Shown: positions 5,007 to 26,278 of the stretch, in pieces
Numbering within the stretch: position 1 is the stretch's first letter
How the letters are laid out: every line of letters starts with the position of its first letter
NCBI GenBank assembly: GCA_030654225.1
Contig: JAURXY010000014.1
Location: forward strand, 1-41,662
Length of the DNA stretch: 41,662 nt
Reading direction: 5' to 3'
Origin: a bacterium
Lineage (GTDB): Bacteria; Patescibacteriota; Minisyncoccia; Moranbacterales; UBA2206
Notes under the pieces: generated by a model
Database searches by the model: none
What the model was told of the DNA's origin: nothing
Seen by the model: only the letters and a program-made list of their open reading frames with translations
Program-made: the position numbers and the translations under genes

Positions 5007-5779
5007 AAATAATAAGCACAGATAATGAAAAGATTAAATTTTTGAAGAAACTTGGAGACAAAAAAGTTCGAGATGTTTCGGGGCAGTTTTTGGTGGAAAA
5101 TTTGATTATCATATATGACGCAATAAGCGCGGGATTTTTACCAAAACAACTTTTTGTTAGCGAAGAACTTCTTGAAAAAGCAGATGAAAAAATAGACAAA
5201 ATAATTGAAAAGTTTCCCGACCACTTTGTCATTAATGAAAAAGTGAATAAATATTTTTCTTCGCTATCCACTCCCTCGGGAATTGCAGGAATTTTTGAAA
5301 AACAAGAAAAAGAACTAAATTTAGATGAAGTTGTGATTTATCTAAACGCAATAGCTGACCCAGGGAATCTAGGTACAATTTTGCGTACTGCCGTAGCTTT
5401 TGGACTCAAAAACATTATCGTCGATGAAAAATGTGCTGATATTTATAATGCCAAAACAATTAGCGCGGCCAAAGATGCAATTTTCAAATTAAATATTGCC
5501 AAAGATGAAAACTTGAAAATATTTGGGGAGATAAAACAGAAGATGAAAATTTTTGTGACTAGTTTGGATGGCGAAGTTATGGATGATAAAATTTTTCAAG
5601 ATAAAACTTTTTGTTTAGTACTTGGTAATGAAGCTAATGGAGTGGAGGAGGGGATAATGAAATTGGCGGATAGAAAAGTGAAAATTGGAATGTCTGGCGA
5701 AATTGAATCACTGAACGTGGCGGTTGCGGCGGGAATTTTGTTTGAGAAAATATATAGTGCGCAGGGCTTACACGCTTGA
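5003..5779 (+). CDS. SpoU/TrmH family RNA 2'-O-methyltransferase
   Basis: A 258-residue SPOUT-class methyltransferase that would transfer a methyl group from S-adenosylmethionine to a ribose 2'-OH of rRNA or tRNA. All three knotted-fold motifs are visible: NAIADPGNLGTILRTAVAFG (motif 1, about residues 113-132), CLVLGNEANGVEEG (motif 2, about 208-221) and SLNVAVAAGILFEKIY (motif 3, near the C-terminus). The N-terminal 100 residues resemble the substrate-binding domain of the SpoU_sub_bind type (FLVENLIIIYDAI). The length fits the 23S rRNA G2251/TrmH-like group, but the exact target nucleotide cannot be read from sequence. It overlaps the bro stop by 4 bp, an unusual coupling of an antirepressor-like gene to an RNA modification enzyme. 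Confidence 0.9.
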   Translation: MKIISTDNEKIKFLKKLGDKKVRDVSGQFLVENLIIIYDAISAGFLPKQLFVSEELLEKADEKIDKIIEKFPDHFVINEKVNKYFSSLSTPSGIAGIFEKQEKELNLDEVVIYLNAIADPGNLGTILRTAVAFGLKNIIVDEKCADIYNAKTISAAKDAIFKLNIAKDENLKIFGEIKQKMKIFVTSLDGEVMDDKIFQDKTFCLVLGNEANGVEEGIMKLADRKVKIGMSGEIESLNVAVAAGILFEKIYSAQGLHA

Positions 5780-21885: not shown

Positions 21886-21913
21886 TTGACATTTTTTTTA
21901 CATTTGGTAAAAT
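21886..21913 (+). promoter_or_regulatory. promoter of leader 1
   Basis: TTGACA (21886-21891), 16 bp spacer, extended -10 TGGTAAAAT ending at 21913. Transcription should start about 3 nt before the leader-peptide ATG at 21923. Confidence 0.65.
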
Positions 21914-21922
21914 AAAATTGTT

Positions 21923-22021
21923 ATGAAAAACATGCAAACTAAAATATCATTTATATTGTCTGTGATTATTTTGCTGGTCTTTGAGACCGGCCTTGGTTTG
22001 CGTGAAATGAAAAAAGCATAA
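21923..22021 (+). CDS. leader peptide 1 (Ile/Leu/Val-rich)
   Basis: A 32-codon ORF right behind a strong promoter. Residues 8-20 read ISFILSVIILLVF, nine of thirteen being Ile, Leu or Val, followed by ETGLGLREMKKA. The codons after this run (21-26) form strand 2 of an attenuator. The C-terminal MKKA resembles MKA of leader peptide 2, although the rest differs. A branched-chain amino acid leader peptide like ilvL is the first reading; a small membrane peptide is the alternative because the run is hydrophobic. Confidence 0.6.
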   Translation: MKNMQTKISFILSVIILLVFETGLGLREMKKA

Positions 22022-22079
22022 AGTTCAAAAGTCATTTCAAATATACCAAAGCCGATCTCATAAAAAGGACCGGTTTTTT
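21983..22079 (+). promoter_or_regulatory. transcription attenuator 1
   Basis: Strand 2 (21983-21997, GAGACCGGCCTTGGT) lies in the end of the leader peptide ORF. Strand 3 (22045-22059, ACCAAAGCCGATCTC) can pair with it at 13 of 15 positions. Strand 3 can instead pair its CCGATCT with GGACCGG (22067-22073) to form a terminator followed by six T. This is the 2:3 versus 3:4 choice of ribosome-controlled attenuation. Strand 3 is the same as in attenuator 2. Confidence 0.7.
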
Positions 22080-22096
22080 AGTTCTTTAAAACAAAA

Positions 22097-22195: not shown

Positions 22196-22438
22196 GTGGA
22201 GATTATTTTAAAAAAAATGCTGGAAAATAATGATAAAGGAAAAATTAAGGTTTATCCTGGTGAATACAATCTAATTTTTATTATAATTCAAGAAAACATA
22301 TCTGGACATGAAAAAGGATTGTATTTTTTTATAACTAATGACCCAACCCAAGAAGGAATATGCTTAGAGTATTGGATGTTTCATGTATTAAAAAATATGG
22401 GTTTTATTGAAATAAAAAAAAATAACATTAAGGAGTAA
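22196..22438 (+). CDS. small protein of unknown function behind attenuator 1
   Basis: 80 residues, starting with GTG 8 bp after a strong Shine-Dalgarno AGGAGG. No family recognised. The sequence has a hydrophobic strand (YNLIFIIIQENI), a Gly/Phe-rich turn (GLYFFITNDPTQEGICLEYW) and a short basic end. It is soluble-looking with predicted beta character. It is followed after 4 bp by a 57-codon gene with its own Shine-Dalgarno, so the two form a unit under attenuator 1. The strong ribosome site and GTG start differ from most genes of this window. Confidence 0.55.
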   Translation: MEIILKKMLENNDKGKIKVYPGEYNLIFIIIQENISGHEKGLYFFITNDPTQEGICLEYWMFHVLKNMGFIEIKKNNIKE

Positions 22439-22442
22439 AAAA

Positions 22443-22616
22443 ATGAGTGATGATAAAAGAAAAGACGTCGTAGGTGATTTTCGGAAAAAGCCTTTTGCGG
22501 AAGTGATTCAAACTCCACCAGTTGATTTTTCAGAGGCGATAAAAAGGGCGAATCTTAAAAAAGGCGGAGCAGACAGATTCGCACAAATATTAACGGTTTA
22601 TAAAAAAATAAAATGA
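22443..22616 (+). CDS. 57-residue protein of unknown function
   Basis: Starts at ATG 22443 behind AAGGAG (spacing about 7). The peptide has charged ends (MSDDKRKDVVGDFRKKPFAE) and a central VIQTPPVDFSEAIKRANLKK, then GGADRFAQILTVYKKIK. It is soluble, probably partly helical, and I recognise no family. It is the second gene of the unit behind attenuator 1. After its stop comes a hairpin-rich stretch. Confidence 0.5.
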   Translation: MSDDKRKDVVGDFRKKPFAEVIQTPPVDFSEAIKRANLKKGGADRFAQILTVYKKIK

Positions 22617-22773: not shown

Positions 22774-22801
22774 TTGACAAAAAAATAGAAGGTGCTAAGA
22801 T
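22774..22801 (+). promoter_or_regulatory. promoter of leader 2
   Basis: TTGACA (22774-22779), 16 bp spacer, extended -10 TGCTAAGAT ending at 22801. The geometry is the same as leader 1. Expected +1 coincides with the ATG at 22808 (leaderless). Confidence 0.65.
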
Positions 22802-22807
22802 AGTGAT

Positions 22808-22903
22808 ATGTTAAAACAACCTAGTCAAAAATTTTATAGCTTTTCTTACTTTTATTTCTGGTTTAGCCAGATCGGTTTTGTTTTGCATAAAATGAAAGCA
22901 TAA
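22808..22903 (+). CDS. leader peptide 2 (Phe/Tyr/Trp-rich)
   Basis: A 31-codon ORF. Residues 9-19 read FYSFSYFYFWF: nine of eleven are aromatic, including one Trp, as in pheL-type leader peptides. The remaining SQIGFVLHKMKA covers strand 2 of the attenuator, so a ribosome stalled at the aromatic run leaves strand 2 free, while one reaching the stop (22901) masks it. This is the arrangement expected for sensing charged aromatic tRNAs. The nearest aromatic biosynthesis genes (prephenate dehydratase and aminotransferase) are about 0.8 kb downstream on the same strand. Confidence 0.65.
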   Translation: MLKQPSQKFYSFSYFYFWFSQIGFVLHKMKA

Positions 22904-22959
22904 AAGACATATTCATTTTAAACAGACCAAAGCCGATCTCACGCGAGACCGGTTTTTTT
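22869..22959 (+). promoter_or_regulatory. transcription attenuator 2
   Basis: Strand 2 AGATCGGTTTTG (22869-22880) pairs fully with strand 3 CAAAGCCGATCT (22928-22939), one pair as G-U. The terminator is CCGATCTC (22933-22940), loop ACGC, GAGACCGG (22945-22952), then seven T. The two structures exclude each other. GTTCTTTAAAAC after the T-run is shared with attenuator 1. Confidence 0.75.
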
Positions 22960-22981
22960 GTTCTTTAAAACTGTTTTTTGG

Positions 22982-23045
22982 AGTTTTGCTGGTTAAAATA
23001 ATAATTTTATTTTTATCTAGAATTTTTATTTTAACCAGTAAAACT
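22982..23045 (+). promoter_or_regulatory. 19 bp leader hairpin before 23083
   Basis: AGTTTTGCTGGTTAAAATA (22982-23000) pairs at all 19 positions (one G-U) with 23027-23045. It lies after the attenuator and before the Shine-Dalgarno AAAGGAG of the gene at 23083. It may protect the mRNA or control access to the start. Confidence 0.65.
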
Positions 23046-23082
23046 AACCCAATAAAAACCCAACAAAAAAAGGAGCTCAAAA

Positions 23083-23502
23083 ATGACGACACAACCCCTA
23101 AGAAAAGAAACAGATGGCGCTGAAGTGAAACAATTTCCTGAAAAAATAAAAAAAACCCCAGAACATCTGGCAAGAGAAGCTGAGGCGGCAGTGAAGAAGA
23201 AATTCACGGAAGAACTTAAATCAATGGCAGATAATATCAAATGGATTTCTAACACTAACGGGAATGTTTTAATTGGAACTCTGGGTTCAATCGCGCGCGT
23301 TCTCTTTATCGGTAAAGAAAATATTATTACTGGTTTAAAAACGTTATTTGATATGGGTTATCAAAAAGAACTGAGTGTCGACCAATCTTTTGAAGCTTTT
23401 CAGGGAATCTTTATTAATCGGGAACTTCAAAAGGCTGAGGAAAGAAATAGAAAAAACAAAAAAACAGAAAAAATCGTAAAAGGTGCCTGGGAAGCATCGT
23501 AA
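23083..23502 (+). CDS. hypothetical protein behind attenuator 2
   Basis: 139 residues, soluble and charged, with no family I recognise. Basic/acidic N-terminus (VKQFPEKIKKTPEHLAREAE), a middle with NGNVLIGTLGSIARVLFIGK, and a lysine-rich C-terminus. It has a strong Shine-Dalgarno (AAGGAG) and is the first gene behind the aromatic leader peptide. Its relation to aromatic metabolism is unknown. A 14 bp perfect hairpin follows its stop. Confidence 0.55.
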   Translation: MTTQPLRKETDGAEVKQFPEKIKKTPEHLAREAEAAVKKKFTEELKSMADNIKWISNTNGNVLIGTLGSIARVLFIGKENIITGLKTLFDMGYQKELSVDQSFEAFQGIFINRELQKAEERNRKNKKTEKIVKGAWEAS

Positions 23503-23512
23503 AATTTCCCGA

Positions 23513-23546
23513 AGCAATGATGGACGGAACCTCGTCCATCATTGCT
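23513..23546 (+). terminator. strong hairpin without T-run
   Basis: AGCAATGATGGACG (23513-23526), loop GAACCT, and its exact complement to 23546. The stem is perfect, but only CCAAACTATT follows, so termination is uncertain; it may be a partial terminator or an mRNA 3' protector that allows read-through to pheA. Confidence 0.5.
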
Positions 23547-23589
23547 CCAAACTATTAAAATTGGTAAACTTTAAATATTAAAAATTAAT

Positions 23590-23680
23590 TGTCATTCCTG
23601 TGAAAACAGGAATCCAGTCACTAAGACTTTATAAATTTCTTAAGTTTTTATACTAGATCCCCGCTTTCGCGAGGATGACA
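23590..23680. repeat. MITE-like inverted element (TGTCATTCC type)
   Basis: Left arm from TGTCATTCCTGTGAAAACAG and right arm ending GCTTTCGCGAGGATGACA are inverted copies, and each arm is itself a hairpin (TTCCTGT-GAAA-ACAGGAA; ATCCCCGC-TTTC-GCGAGGAT). TGTCATYCC...GGATGACA repeats are widespread in bacterial genomes. Its right end supplies an in-frame ATG five codons before the true pheA start. Confidence 0.75.
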
Positions 23681-23689
23681 TCAACGCTT

Positions 23690-24265
23690 ATGTCTCAAAA
23701 AATTAAAATTGGCGTTTCGGGCAATCGAGGAAGTTTCTCGGAAGAAGCGGCTAACTATTATTGCGGAAAAAACAACATATATGAATATGAACTTTCCTAT
23801 CTGACTAGTGTGGAAAATGTTCTCTCGGCACTGGACGAAGGAAAAATTGACGAGGGAGTTTTTCCGATTGAAAATTCTAATGGTGGAATTGTGATTGAAG
23901 CAGTTCAGGCCATGTCAAAACATATTTTCAACATTAAAAAAATGTTTGAAATTGACATCAGAATGAATCTGATGGCGAAAAAAGGGATGAGCTTGGAGAA
24001 CATAAAAAAGATAACTTCTCATCAACAAGCCCTCCGGCAATGTCGCATGTATCTCAAGCGAAAATGGCCAGAAGCAGAACTTTCGGAATATTGCGATACA
24101 GCTAGTGCGGCCAAGGATTTAAGTGAGGGAACTTTGCCGGAAAATTCCGCGGTTATTGCGCCGAGAATCTGTGCTGATTTATATAGTTTAGATTTATTAG
24201 AAGAGGGAATTCAAGATTTGAAATTTAATTTCACTACTTTTATTGTTGCAACAAAATCAAAATGA
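23690..24265 (+). CDS. pheA: prephenate dehydratase catalytic domain, no ACT domain
   Basis: A 191-residue protein matching the prephenate dehydratase (PDT) fold, which converts prephenate to phenylpyruvate in Phe synthesis. Signatures: KIGVSGNRGSFSEEAANYY (start of the domain), GVFPIENSNGGIV, ITSHQQALRQCRMYLKR, CDTASAAKDL and FNFTTFIVAT near the end. The ACT regulatory domain that normally follows (about 80 residues) is absent, so feedback by Phe is not expected at the protein level. I prefer the ATG at 23690 because the upstream ATG at 23675 lies in the mobile-type repeat. It overlaps the aminotransferase by 4 bp (ATGA), so the two are translationally coupled. Confidence 0.85.
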   Translation: MSQKIKIGVSGNRGSFSEEAANYYCGKNNIYEYELSYLTSVENVLSALDEGKIDEGVFPIENSNGGIVIEAVQAMSKHIFNIKKMFEIDIRMNLMAKKGMSLENIKKITSHQQALRQCRMYLKRKWPEAELSEYCDTASAAKDLSEGTLPENSAVIAPRICADLYSLDLLEEGIQDLKFNFTTFIVATKSK

Positions 24266-25359
24266 TACTTTCAAAAAAAATTCAAAAAATTGAAAGTTCA
24301 GGCATTCGAAAGGTTTTTGATTTAGCCACCAAGAACAAGGGGAAATTTGTGAATTTTTCTATTGGCCAACCACACTTTGAGACGCCGAAAAAACTCAAAA
24401 TTTCAGCGCAAAAAGCTATTTCAGAAAACCATAATTCCTACACGCCCACTAAGGGAATCTTAAAATTGCGTCAAGAAATTTCTGAAAATCTCAAGAAAAC
24501 CAGAAAGATTAAGGTTGATCCGGAAAATATCATTATCACCGCCGGAACTTCCGGGGCGATTTTTTTGCTTTTTTCTTCAATTTTTGACACAGGAGACGAA
24601 GTGATTTTGCCTGATCCATATTTTGTAATGTATCAACAAGTATTGAATTTTTTAGGAGTGAAGATAAAGTATCTTGATACTTATTCGGATTTTCACATCA
24701 ATCCAGAAAAATTGGAAAAACTAATCAGCCCAAAAACCAAGGCGATAATTCTCAATTCTCCCAACAATCCGACGGGGGCAGTTTATGCCAAAAAAGAAAT
24801 AGAAAAAGTGGTTAGGATTGCCAAGAAAAACGATTTATTAATTGTCTCTGATGAAATTTATGACGCCTTCGATTATGATAAGCAATTTTTTTCACCTGCA
24901 TCAATTTATGCAAAAACAATTCTGCTTAGCGGTTTTTCCAAGAGTCATTCGATCACTGGTTGGCGAATTGGCTATGCTTATGGACCAAGTGAAATTATTG
25001 AAGCCATGAATAAATTGCAACAATATACTTTTGTTTGTGCGCCTTCATTCTCGCAATATGCAATGTTGGGAAATATTGATTCAATTCCAAAAAAAGAAAT
25101 TGCAAATTACAAAAAGAAAAGAAACTTTGTATATGAAAATCTAAAAGATTTATATGAGCTTAACATTCCCGAAGGTGCTTTCTATGCTTTCATAAAAATT
25201 CCAAAAGATCAGAAAAATTTCATCGAAAAACTTTTGAAAAACAATCTACTGGTTGTACCAGGGGAAGTCTTCTCTCAGAAAAAAGGATATTTTAGAATTT
25301 CTTTTGCCGTGCCGGATTCAGAATTGAAAAAGGGGATAGAAATATTAAAGAATCGTTAA
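24262..25359 (+). CDS. class I/II aminotransferase, aspartate/aromatic type
   Basis: A 365-residue PLP enzyme of fold type I. Visible signatures: FSIGQPHFETPKKL near the N-terminus, AGTSGAIFLLFSSI, LNSPNNPTGAVYAKKEIEKV, VSDEIYDAFDYD and the Schiff-base lysine in SGFSKSHSITGWRIGYAYG (about residue 227). The Arg of GYFRISFA near the C-terminus binds the substrate carboxylate. The length is usual. With the coupled prephenate dehydratase, it most likely makes Phe (or Tyr) from the keto acid, although aspartate or other amino-donor specificity cannot be excluded. It has no upstream gap from pheA, so the pair is one transcription unit. Confidence 0.88.
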   Translation: MILSKKIQKIESSGIRKVFDLATKNKGKFVNFSIGQPHFETPKKLKISAQKAISENHNSYTPTKGILKLRQEISENLKKTRKIKVDPENIIITAGTSGAIFLLFSSIFDTGDEVILPDPYFVMYQQVLNFLGVKIKYLDTYSDFHINPEKLEKLISPKTKAIILNSPNNPTGAVYAKKEIEKVVRIAKKNDLLIVSDEIYDAFDYDKQFFSPASIYAKTILLSGFSKSHSITGWRIGYAYGPSEIIEAMNKLQQYTFVCAPSFSQYAMLGNIDSIPKKEIANYKKKRNFVYENLKDLYELNIPEGAFYAFIKIPKDQKNFIEKLLKNNLLVVPGEVFSQKKGYFRISFAVPDSELKKGIEILKNR

Positions 25360-25459: not shown

Positions 25460-25498
25460 ATGGGTCTAATTTTGTTCTTTTTTTTCAATAAAAATTAA
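25460..25498 (+). CDS. putative 12-codon Phe-rich upstream ORF
   Basis: MGLILFFFFNKN behind GGAGA (25448-25452). Four consecutive Phe codons sit on a T-run. No terminator/antiterminator pair is visible between this ORF and the gene at 25524, so classical attenuation is not supported. The ORF could still report Phe supply through transcript pausing, or be chance. Confidence 0.25.
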   Translation: MGLILFFFFNKN

Positions 25499-25523: not shown

Positions 25524-25883
25524 GTGAATCATATCTACGAATATTGCTGGGAGTGCGGAGAAGAGGTTGATCCAGTGACGATGCGCAATGAGCTTGGTAA
25601 TGCAATTTGTCCAAGATGCTACCAGATAGAATATTATCACAATCCCAATACCTGGAGGCGTTGCTCGGAATGCGGGAAAGTTAAACAGGTGGCAATGCGC
25701 AAAGAATCCGGCGAGGCAATTTGTCCTGCTTGTTACCAACATAGCAAAATTGGAAAGTGCATCAAGTGCAAAAAGACGAAAGTCATTCAAGCACTTGGAT
25801 GCTGCTATGGTTGCTACCAGCGTCAACGACGTGCTAAAAAAAGCCTGAATGCGGAAGTCTCTATCTTACTTTGCCCCTCTTAA
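25524..25883 (+). CDS. zinc-ribbon protein with three Cys4 modules
   Basis: A 119-residue protein starting with GTG behind a strong Shine-Dalgarno (AAGGAGGT). Three CxxC...CxxC modules can be counted: CWECGEEV / CPRCYQ, CSECGKVKQ / CPACYQ and CIKCKKTK / CYGCYQ. Spacing within modules is about 20 residues. The first two modules share MRNELGNAICPRCY / MRKESGEAICPACY, so they arose by internal duplication. Small zinc-ribbon proteins of this type usually bind nucleic acid or ribosomal components; I know no specific function. It is flanked by its own promoter and a strong terminator. Confidence 0.7.
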   Translation: MNHIYEYCWECGEEVDPVTMRNELGNAICPRCYQIEYYHNPNTWRRCSECGKVKQVAMRKESGEAICPACYQHSKIGKCIKCKKTKVIQALGCCYGCYQRQRRAKKSLNAEVSILLCPS

Positions 25884-25929: not shown

Positions 25930-25976
25930 TTGACAACTTTCAGAAGTAGTATATGATGTACCTAGGGGGGAGGTAG
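25930..25976 (+). promoter_or_regulatory. csoR promoter and copper operator
   Basis: TTGACA (25930-25935), 16 bp spacer, TATGAT (25952-25957). Directly downstream, TACCTAGGGGGGAGGTA (25959-25975) has inverted TACCT/AGGTA arms around a G-run, the form of known CsoR operators. CsoR without Cu(I) should repress here. Confidence 0.75.
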
Positions 25977-26011
25977 TGGAAAATTTCTAATTAAATAAGA
26001 ATTTAAAAATT

Positions 26012-26278
26012 ATGGAAGATAATAAAAACACTATAACAGCTTTGAAAAAGGCGCATAGTCATTTAGGGCGAGTGATCAAAATGGCAGAAGAAAAAGAATA
26101 TTGCATCAATATTTTGCAACAGAATTTGGCGGTGATTGGACTTTTGAAATCAGCTAATTCTAAAATTTTAGAAGGACATTTGAATAGTTGTTTCCAAAAT
26201 GCTATGCGGGGGACTAATGAAAAAAGAAAAAAAGAAATGATTGAAGAAATATTGGTAATTAATAAATTGAGTAAATAA
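26012..26278 (+). CDS. csoR: CsoR-type copper-sensing repressor
   Basis: An 88-residue all-helical regulator of the CsoR/RcnR family (DUF156). ALKKAHSHLGRVIKMAEEKE, then YCINILQQNLAVIGLLKSAN and ILEGHLNSC give the Cys-His-Cys set expected for Cu(I) coordination. The length is normal. It is preceded by a promoter with a G-tract operator and followed after 11 bp by an HMA-containing copper protein and by copA, so it should be the copper-responsive regulator of this cluster. Copper binding releases the DNA in this family. Confidence 0.9.
   Translation: MEDNKNTITALKKAHSHLGRVIKMAEEKEYCINILQQNLAVIGLLKSANSKILEGHLNSCFQNAMRGTNEKRKKEMIEEILVINKLSK

Follow-up and report, generated by a model that had tools for sequence, protein, structure and literature searches.

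Does a short, aromatic-rich reading frame that lies ahead of a prephenate dehydratase gene in a member of the Candidatus Moranbacteria (Moraniibacteriota; Patescibacteria) act as a sensor of aromatic amino acid shortage, and if so, what does it control? The locus lies on the forward strand of a 41,662-nucleotide stretch of DNA (contig JAURXY010000014.1 of assembly GCA_030654225.1), which we refer to as the window. The initial annotation proposed a leader peptide with nine aromatic residues in eleven codons, mutually exclusive 2:3 and 3:4 helices with a real terminator, and attenuation of the pheA/trp type upstream of an unknown gene, a prephenate dehydratase gene and an aminotransferase gene, with a repeat and a hairpin lying between. 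We asked whether these features are present, whether they are conserved, and whether the proposed target is supported.

To verify the observation, we examined the sequence of the locus and its predicted folding. A promoter, TTGACA-16-TAAGAT with a TG extension, is located at 22774-22801, and its -10 element ends 6 nt before the leader ATG. The 31-codon leader ORF at 22808-22903 translates as MLKQPSQKFYSFSYFYFWFSQIGFVLHKMKA and has no Shine-Dalgarno sequence. Its control codons at 22832-22864 read FYSFSYFYFWF, which is five Phe, three Tyr and one Trp codon, with two Ser codons. Strand 1 (22857-22861) includes most of the Trp codon and pairs with 22867-22871 to form a 1:2 hairpin, which the initial annotation did not list. 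Strand 2 (22867-22896) is still inside the leader ORF and pairs with strand 3 (22912-22939) to form the antiterminator, whereas the 3' part of strand 3 pairs with strand 4. Strand 4 and its T-run occupy 22945-22959, with the intrinsic terminator formed by 22929-22940 and 22945-22956 and the T-run at 22953-22959. The 2:3 helix folds at -25.6 kcal/mol (z = -7.6, 0 of 200 shuffles), the 3:4 terminator hairpin at -12.3 kcal/mol (z = -3.3), and the leader as a whole has a z-score of -3.9. A long AT-rich hairpin (-27.7 kcal/mol) at 22982-23045 lies between the terminator and the first gene. That gene (23083-23502) encodes a 139-aa protein of unknown function, and it is followed by a perfect hairpin without a T-run (23513-23546), a repeat (23590-23690), pheA (23693-24265, with an in-frame ATG also at 23675; Pfam PF00800, PDT, E = 5.6e-46) and a class I/II aminotransferase gene (24262-25359; PF00155, E = 2.8e-65) that overlaps the pheA stop by 4 nt. 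The promoter, the leader ORF, strands 1-4, the hairpin at 23513-23546 and the three genes are on the forward strand. We conclude that the features described in the initial annotation are real.

An aromatic run could arise by chance in T-rich DNA. In 300 dinucleotide-shuffled windows, a run of 9 aromatic residues in 11 occurred 9 times, but the real window contains two further runs that are antisense to Lys-rich genes. The run alone is therefore suggestive rather than decisive, and it is comparative conservation that makes it secure. The leader is kept in all seven genomes of the genus, with leader DNA 90-98% identical in the six sister species, and it is recognizable in other genera. Across genera the aromatic residues are kept while the codons change, for example MANSRNQNLYSFYYFFFWFFNQAGFGFEKIKA in G007 (the genomes we compared are designated G and the loci extracted from them L). 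The absence of aromatic bias in relatives had been named in advance as an outcome that would refute the attenuation reading, and it was not observed.

We also found that the element is not alone. A paralogous element, which the initial annotation missed, lies 880 bp upstream on the same strand at 21923-22091, after rpoD. It has a TTGACA-16-TAAAAT promoter (21886-21913), a leader of the Ile/Leu/Val class at 21923-22021 that translates as MKNMQTKISFILSVIILLVFETGLGLREMKKA, and strands 1-4 with a terminator at 21970-22092. This element is followed by an 80-aa gene of unknown function with a Shine-Dalgarno sequence (22196-22438) and by a 57-aa gene of unknown function (22443-22616).

The two elements belong to a larger family, which the initial annotation also missed. 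We built a covariance model extending from strand 2 to the terminator tail (R1, 22 sequences), which found the element in 30 of 34 genomes of the family and 72 of 131 genomes of the order. A broader model (R2, 64 sequences) found it in 34 of 286 genomes of the class at E up to 0.001, of which 24 are outside the order. Hits in the latter include G295 (E = 1.7e-15), with a YFFFAYFGFWF leader, and G275, with an NFFFFF leader before PheA that was read by eye. Several of the weaker hits outside the order have no convincing leader and may be chance. The upstream Ile/Leu/Val element scored E = 1.3e-25 with R1 and 3.3e-18 with R2, although it is one of the sequences from which both models were built. 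These searches sampled only part of each group, most of the genomes are metagenome-assembled, and the model E-values are rough. An exact-pattern search of the genome collection named the carriers as Candidatus Moranbacteria / Moraniibacteriota. It also returned matches in Burkholderiales, Peregrinibacteria and Bryobacterales, but the eight such loci that we scanned gave no R2 hit and are taken as accidental.

We next classified the leaders of 87 elements, with leader starts chosen by script and some choices made by hand. Of these, 40 are aromatic, 33 are Ile/Leu/Val and 14 are of other classes, which include Pro, His, Asn/Asp and Cys/Met. Shuffled control regions passed the aromatic threshold in 2% of cases and the Ile/Leu/Val threshold in 28%, so the latter class is weaker than the aromatic one. 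No leader of the 87 has a Shine-Dalgarno-like 4-mer within 18 nt, while 44 of 62 first downstream genes do. A -35/-10 pair is present in 72 of the 87 elements, and among these the gap from the -10 to the ATG is most often 6 nt (26 of 72) and is 9 nt or less in 45. These observations point to leaderless leader peptides, as inferred from promoter spacing.

To test whether the alternative helices are conserved, we examined covariation. In 64 sequences, 22 of 25 pairs of the 2:3 helix and 7 of 11 pairs of the 3:4 helix show compensatory change, each above shuffled and slid controls on the covariation score. Because R1 and R2 include the 2:3 pairs, the covariation of 2:3 is biased upward, whereas 3:4 was not part of the models; relatedness of the sequences is not fully removed by these controls. 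The 1:2 hairpin is paired in 88% of cells over 22 sequences, but only one pair has double changes. In addition, strands from the same element pair better than strands swapped between elements (2:3, -20.9 versus -13.4 kcal/mol; 3:4, -9.1 versus -7.6 kcal/mol; 0 of 5000 permutations).

If the leader is a sensor, the class of its codons should fit the genes that follow. Where the downstream gene is a known biosynthetic enzyme, the two agree. Aromatic leaders precede genes for DAHP synthase, PheA and an aminotransferase in G053, TyrA-PheA in G036 and G068, and PheA in G037, G019 and, outside the order, G275. Leu or Ile leaders precede LeuA in G090 and G112 (TIGR00970 over cut-off), CimA in G090, G072, G032 and G014 (TIGR00977 over cut-off in G090 and G032 and below it in G072), and LeuA_dimer proteins in G036 and G019. 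A Pro leader precedes an amino-acid kinase read as ProB, with ProS further on, in G009 and G024, and the G024 locus also has a ProA-like ORF by eye. A His leader precedes HisG in G018 (over cut-off), Asn/Asp leaders precede an Mqo-family oxidoreductase in G075 (followed by an aminotransferase) and also in G046, and a Cys/Met leader lies about 1 kb before O-acetylhomoserine sulfhydrylase in G089. Six aromatic-gene and eight branched-chain-gene cases, all matched, would have a chance of 1 in 3003 if class were independent of gene, although the loci were chosen after seeing the hits. A gene-first control with RecA found no element in 30 loci. A gene-first scan limited to 300 nt upstream was too strict to recover the known cases (3 of 9 leuA/cimA), and longer spans and the covariance models add the rest. 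We dropped a branched-chain aminotransferase-like ORF in G036 because it lies on the opposite strand, and a possible His leader for hisG in the genus of the window (HH in MLNRISKNHHKTSSSSRKRLI, G005) was not convincing.

Many elements, including both in the window, precede small unknown or unrelated genes rather than biosynthetic ones. Three protein families without a Pfam match sit between attenuators and, respectively, an M20 peptidase (L115, L152, L060), an M28 peptidase (L157, L112, L113, L067) and an N-formylglutamate amidohydrolase (L161, L163, L170, L153; the amidohydrolase was not seen in L153), and these could possibly be amino-acid scavenging enzymes. In several genera, aromatic leaders precede 2-oxoacid:ferredoxin oxidoreductase genes, often after a small unknown gene (L120, L136, L137, L142, L145, L148, L158). 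Some leaders do not fit simply: those of G031/G032 (WYSCSGSGS, WSSCSGSGS; loci L176 and L168, 576-688) lie upstream of a small ORF and a tyrosyl-tRNA synthetase-like gene, which the Ser/Gly/Cys run does not match. Outside the order, leaders with a Tyr triplet (SYYYR, SYYYS, LYYYL; L268, L273, L274) precede a P-loop kinase-like gene and a second conserved gene in G314 and G360, and may represent a Tyr-only class. G016 has an Asn-rich leader, MKQRNNNNQNNNNTAKAALFEF, followed by a terminator just after rpoD (L068 reverse complement, about 5254-5370), which is a possible Asn attenuator of another scaffold. Elsewhere in the window, a short ORF at 25460-25498, MGLILFFFFNKN, follows a TTGACG-17-TAGGAT promoter and precedes a zinc-ribbon gene at 25524; it could be a further leader but has no obvious terminator and no R2 hit. 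A strong promoter, TTGACA-16-TATGAT, and a G-rich motif (ACCTAGGGGGGAGGT) are found at 25930-26278 before a CsoR-like repressor gene, followed by heavy-metal-domain and P-type ATPase-like genes read by eye.

We then asked whether the aromatic element in the window controls pheA. The 139-aa product of the first gene has no Pfam family over its cut-off and one weak relative (23% identity) in 55 genomes, and most sister genomes have a different small ORF at this place, usually with a Shine-Dalgarno sequence. All seven genomes of the genus keep the leader, but a PDT gene was found in only three of them. In G000, G001 and G005, the leader, small ORF and pheA stay in this order on one strand. G000 has no DAHP_synth_1 or LeuA_dimer match. 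The hairpin after the first small gene, of the GCAATGGTGGACG type, recurs at the same place in several sister genomes (L059, L061, L064); in G003 it is followed by a terminator, but before pheA it is not. The repeat intervenes in this genome. The attenuator is thus well supported, but control of pheA in this window is about as likely as not. The interpretation in the initial annotation is therefore partly supported: its mechanism is strongly supported, but that this leader controls pheA here is not established.

Taken together, we conclude with high confidence that 22774-22960 is best explained as a ribosome-mediated transcription attenuator that would sense charged aromatic tRNAs, mainly Phe and Tyr with one Trp codon. 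In this model, transcription starts at or within a few nt of the leader AUG, and a ribosome loads at the 5' end of the nascent RNA without a Shine-Dalgarno site. When aromatic amino acids are sufficient, the ribosome would cross the run and be sitting on strand 2 as RNA polymerase makes strands 3 and 4, so that 3:4 forms and transcription stops at the T-run. When they are scarce, the ribosome would stall in the run, leaving strand 2 free to pair with strand 3, the terminator could not form, and transcription would read on into 23083 and possibly pheA and the aminotransferase gene. Without translation, the 1:2 hairpin may keep strand 2 from strand 3 and favor termination. This is the logic described previously (PMC1183508), with the coding sequence extended through strand 2. 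The stop codon lies about 20 nt past the core of strand 2, unlike the layout in E. coli, so timing matters more. Sequence comparison establishes the leader classes, the exclusive helices, their covariation and the match between class and gene in relatives, whereas leaderless initiation, translation of the leader, stalling, termination and read-through, including its rise upon starvation, are inferred from sequence alone.

The alternative that deserves most weight is that the attenuator is real but acts only on the small gene at 23083, with pheA having its own promoter and being a neighbor by chance. This reading competes only with the last step of the model, and so the two overlap. We consider it slightly less likely than not. 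In its favor, the leader is kept in four genomes of the genus in which no PDT gene was found, the first ORF is variable and usually has a Shine-Dalgarno sequence, and a hairpin and a repeat separate it from pheA. Against it, in other families aromatic leaders directly precede DAHP synthase, TyrA and PheA, the gene order persists in G000, G001 and G005, and the hairpin lacks a T-run.

The remaining alternatives are all very unlikely. The ORF could encode a small hydrophobic membrane peptide resembling a type I toxin, with the hairpins only controlling its mRNA, since aromatic and Ile/Leu/Val peptides of about 30-36 aa look hydrophobic. However, homologous elements carry Asn/Asp (KNDNNDNDD), Pro, His or Ser/Gly runs, which are not membrane spans, the class follows the downstream biosynthetic gene, and the conserved C-terminal part is the one that encodes strand 2. 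The element could instead be a stand-alone small RNA with an incidental ORF, because a strong promoter and terminator bound about 150 nt, and the absence of a family over the Rfam gathering score does not exclude a new RNA. The conserved reading frame and amino-acid class with changing codons, the conservation of both 2:3 and 3:4 although they are exclusive, and the match of class to downstream biosynthetic genes argue against this. The least likely possibility is that the run is a chance product of T-rich intergenic DNA; T-rich or anti-Lys frames do give aromatic runs, but the class is conserved across genera with codon changes, and 40 of 87 elements have the run versus 2% expected.

To determine whether the element is already known, we scanned the window with 4227 Rfam families. 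There was no match at the gathering threshold, and at E up to 10 there were only matches below threshold, none of which was an amino-acid leader; no T-box model matched. Literature searches, limited to open-licence PMC papers, found no attenuators in Patescibacteria. The E. coli pheA and trp attenuators, with leader peptides PheL and TrpL, share the run of cognate control codons, strands 1-4 with exclusive 2:3 and 3:4, the intrinsic terminator and, in relatives of the window, biosynthetic target genes. The elements described here differ in lacking a Shine-Dalgarno sequence, in having an AUG predicted at or near +1, in placing strand 2 inside the leader ORF, in predicted mixed Phe/Tyr/Trp sensing, in sharing a homologous scaffold among several amino-acid classes, and in belonging to another phylum. 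The closest precedent for a leaderless form is the poly-cysteine short ORF attenuators of mycobacteria (Canestrari et al. 2020, cited in PMC9031893), in which a leaderless short ORF rich in one amino acid reports its supply to downstream genes. Those respond to cysteine and are described as acting on translation of downstream genes (PMC9031893), whereas here the amino acids are mainly aromatic and branched-chain, with transcription terminators, in Patescibacteria. Classical attenuators predicted in Actinobacteria for trp, ilvB and leuS (PMC1262725) were likewise found by comparison as candidate leader peptides with terminators, but were predicted operon by operon, whereas here one RNA scaffold carries several specificities. 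T-box elements also sense the charging of several tRNAs with one scaffold whose specificity switches, but they bind tRNA directly, whereas here a ribosome on a leader ORF would be the sensor. The mechanism is of a known kind, and what is new, as far as we could find, is the predicted leaderless form, the lineage and the shared scaffold with switching specificity.

In our model, the element is one of a homologous family in Moranbacteria and other members of its class in which the strand 2-3-4 scaffold is kept and the control codons change with the regulated genes. A broader reading, which we consider somewhat more likely than not, is that a Patescibacteria-wide, homologous family of leaderless, ribosome-sensed attenuators, whose specificity is switched by changing codons on a fixed strand 2-3-4 scaffold, serves as a main amino-acid starvation regulon, covering biosynthesis, peptidases, 2-oxoacid oxidoreductases and unknown small proteins, in bacteria with few biosynthetic pathways. 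The Candidate Phyla Radiation (Patescibacteria) is thought to have little biosynthesis, and how its members sense amino-acid shortage is, as far as we could find in the papers searched, not described. A sequence-defined, widespread attenuator family gives a directly testable answer, names likely targets, including unknown protein families next to M20 and M28 peptidases, and may help to tell what amino acid an uncharacterized gene is tied to. It also shows one RNA scaffold carrying several amino-acid specificities through codon change, a T-box-like flexibility without tRNA-binding RNA.
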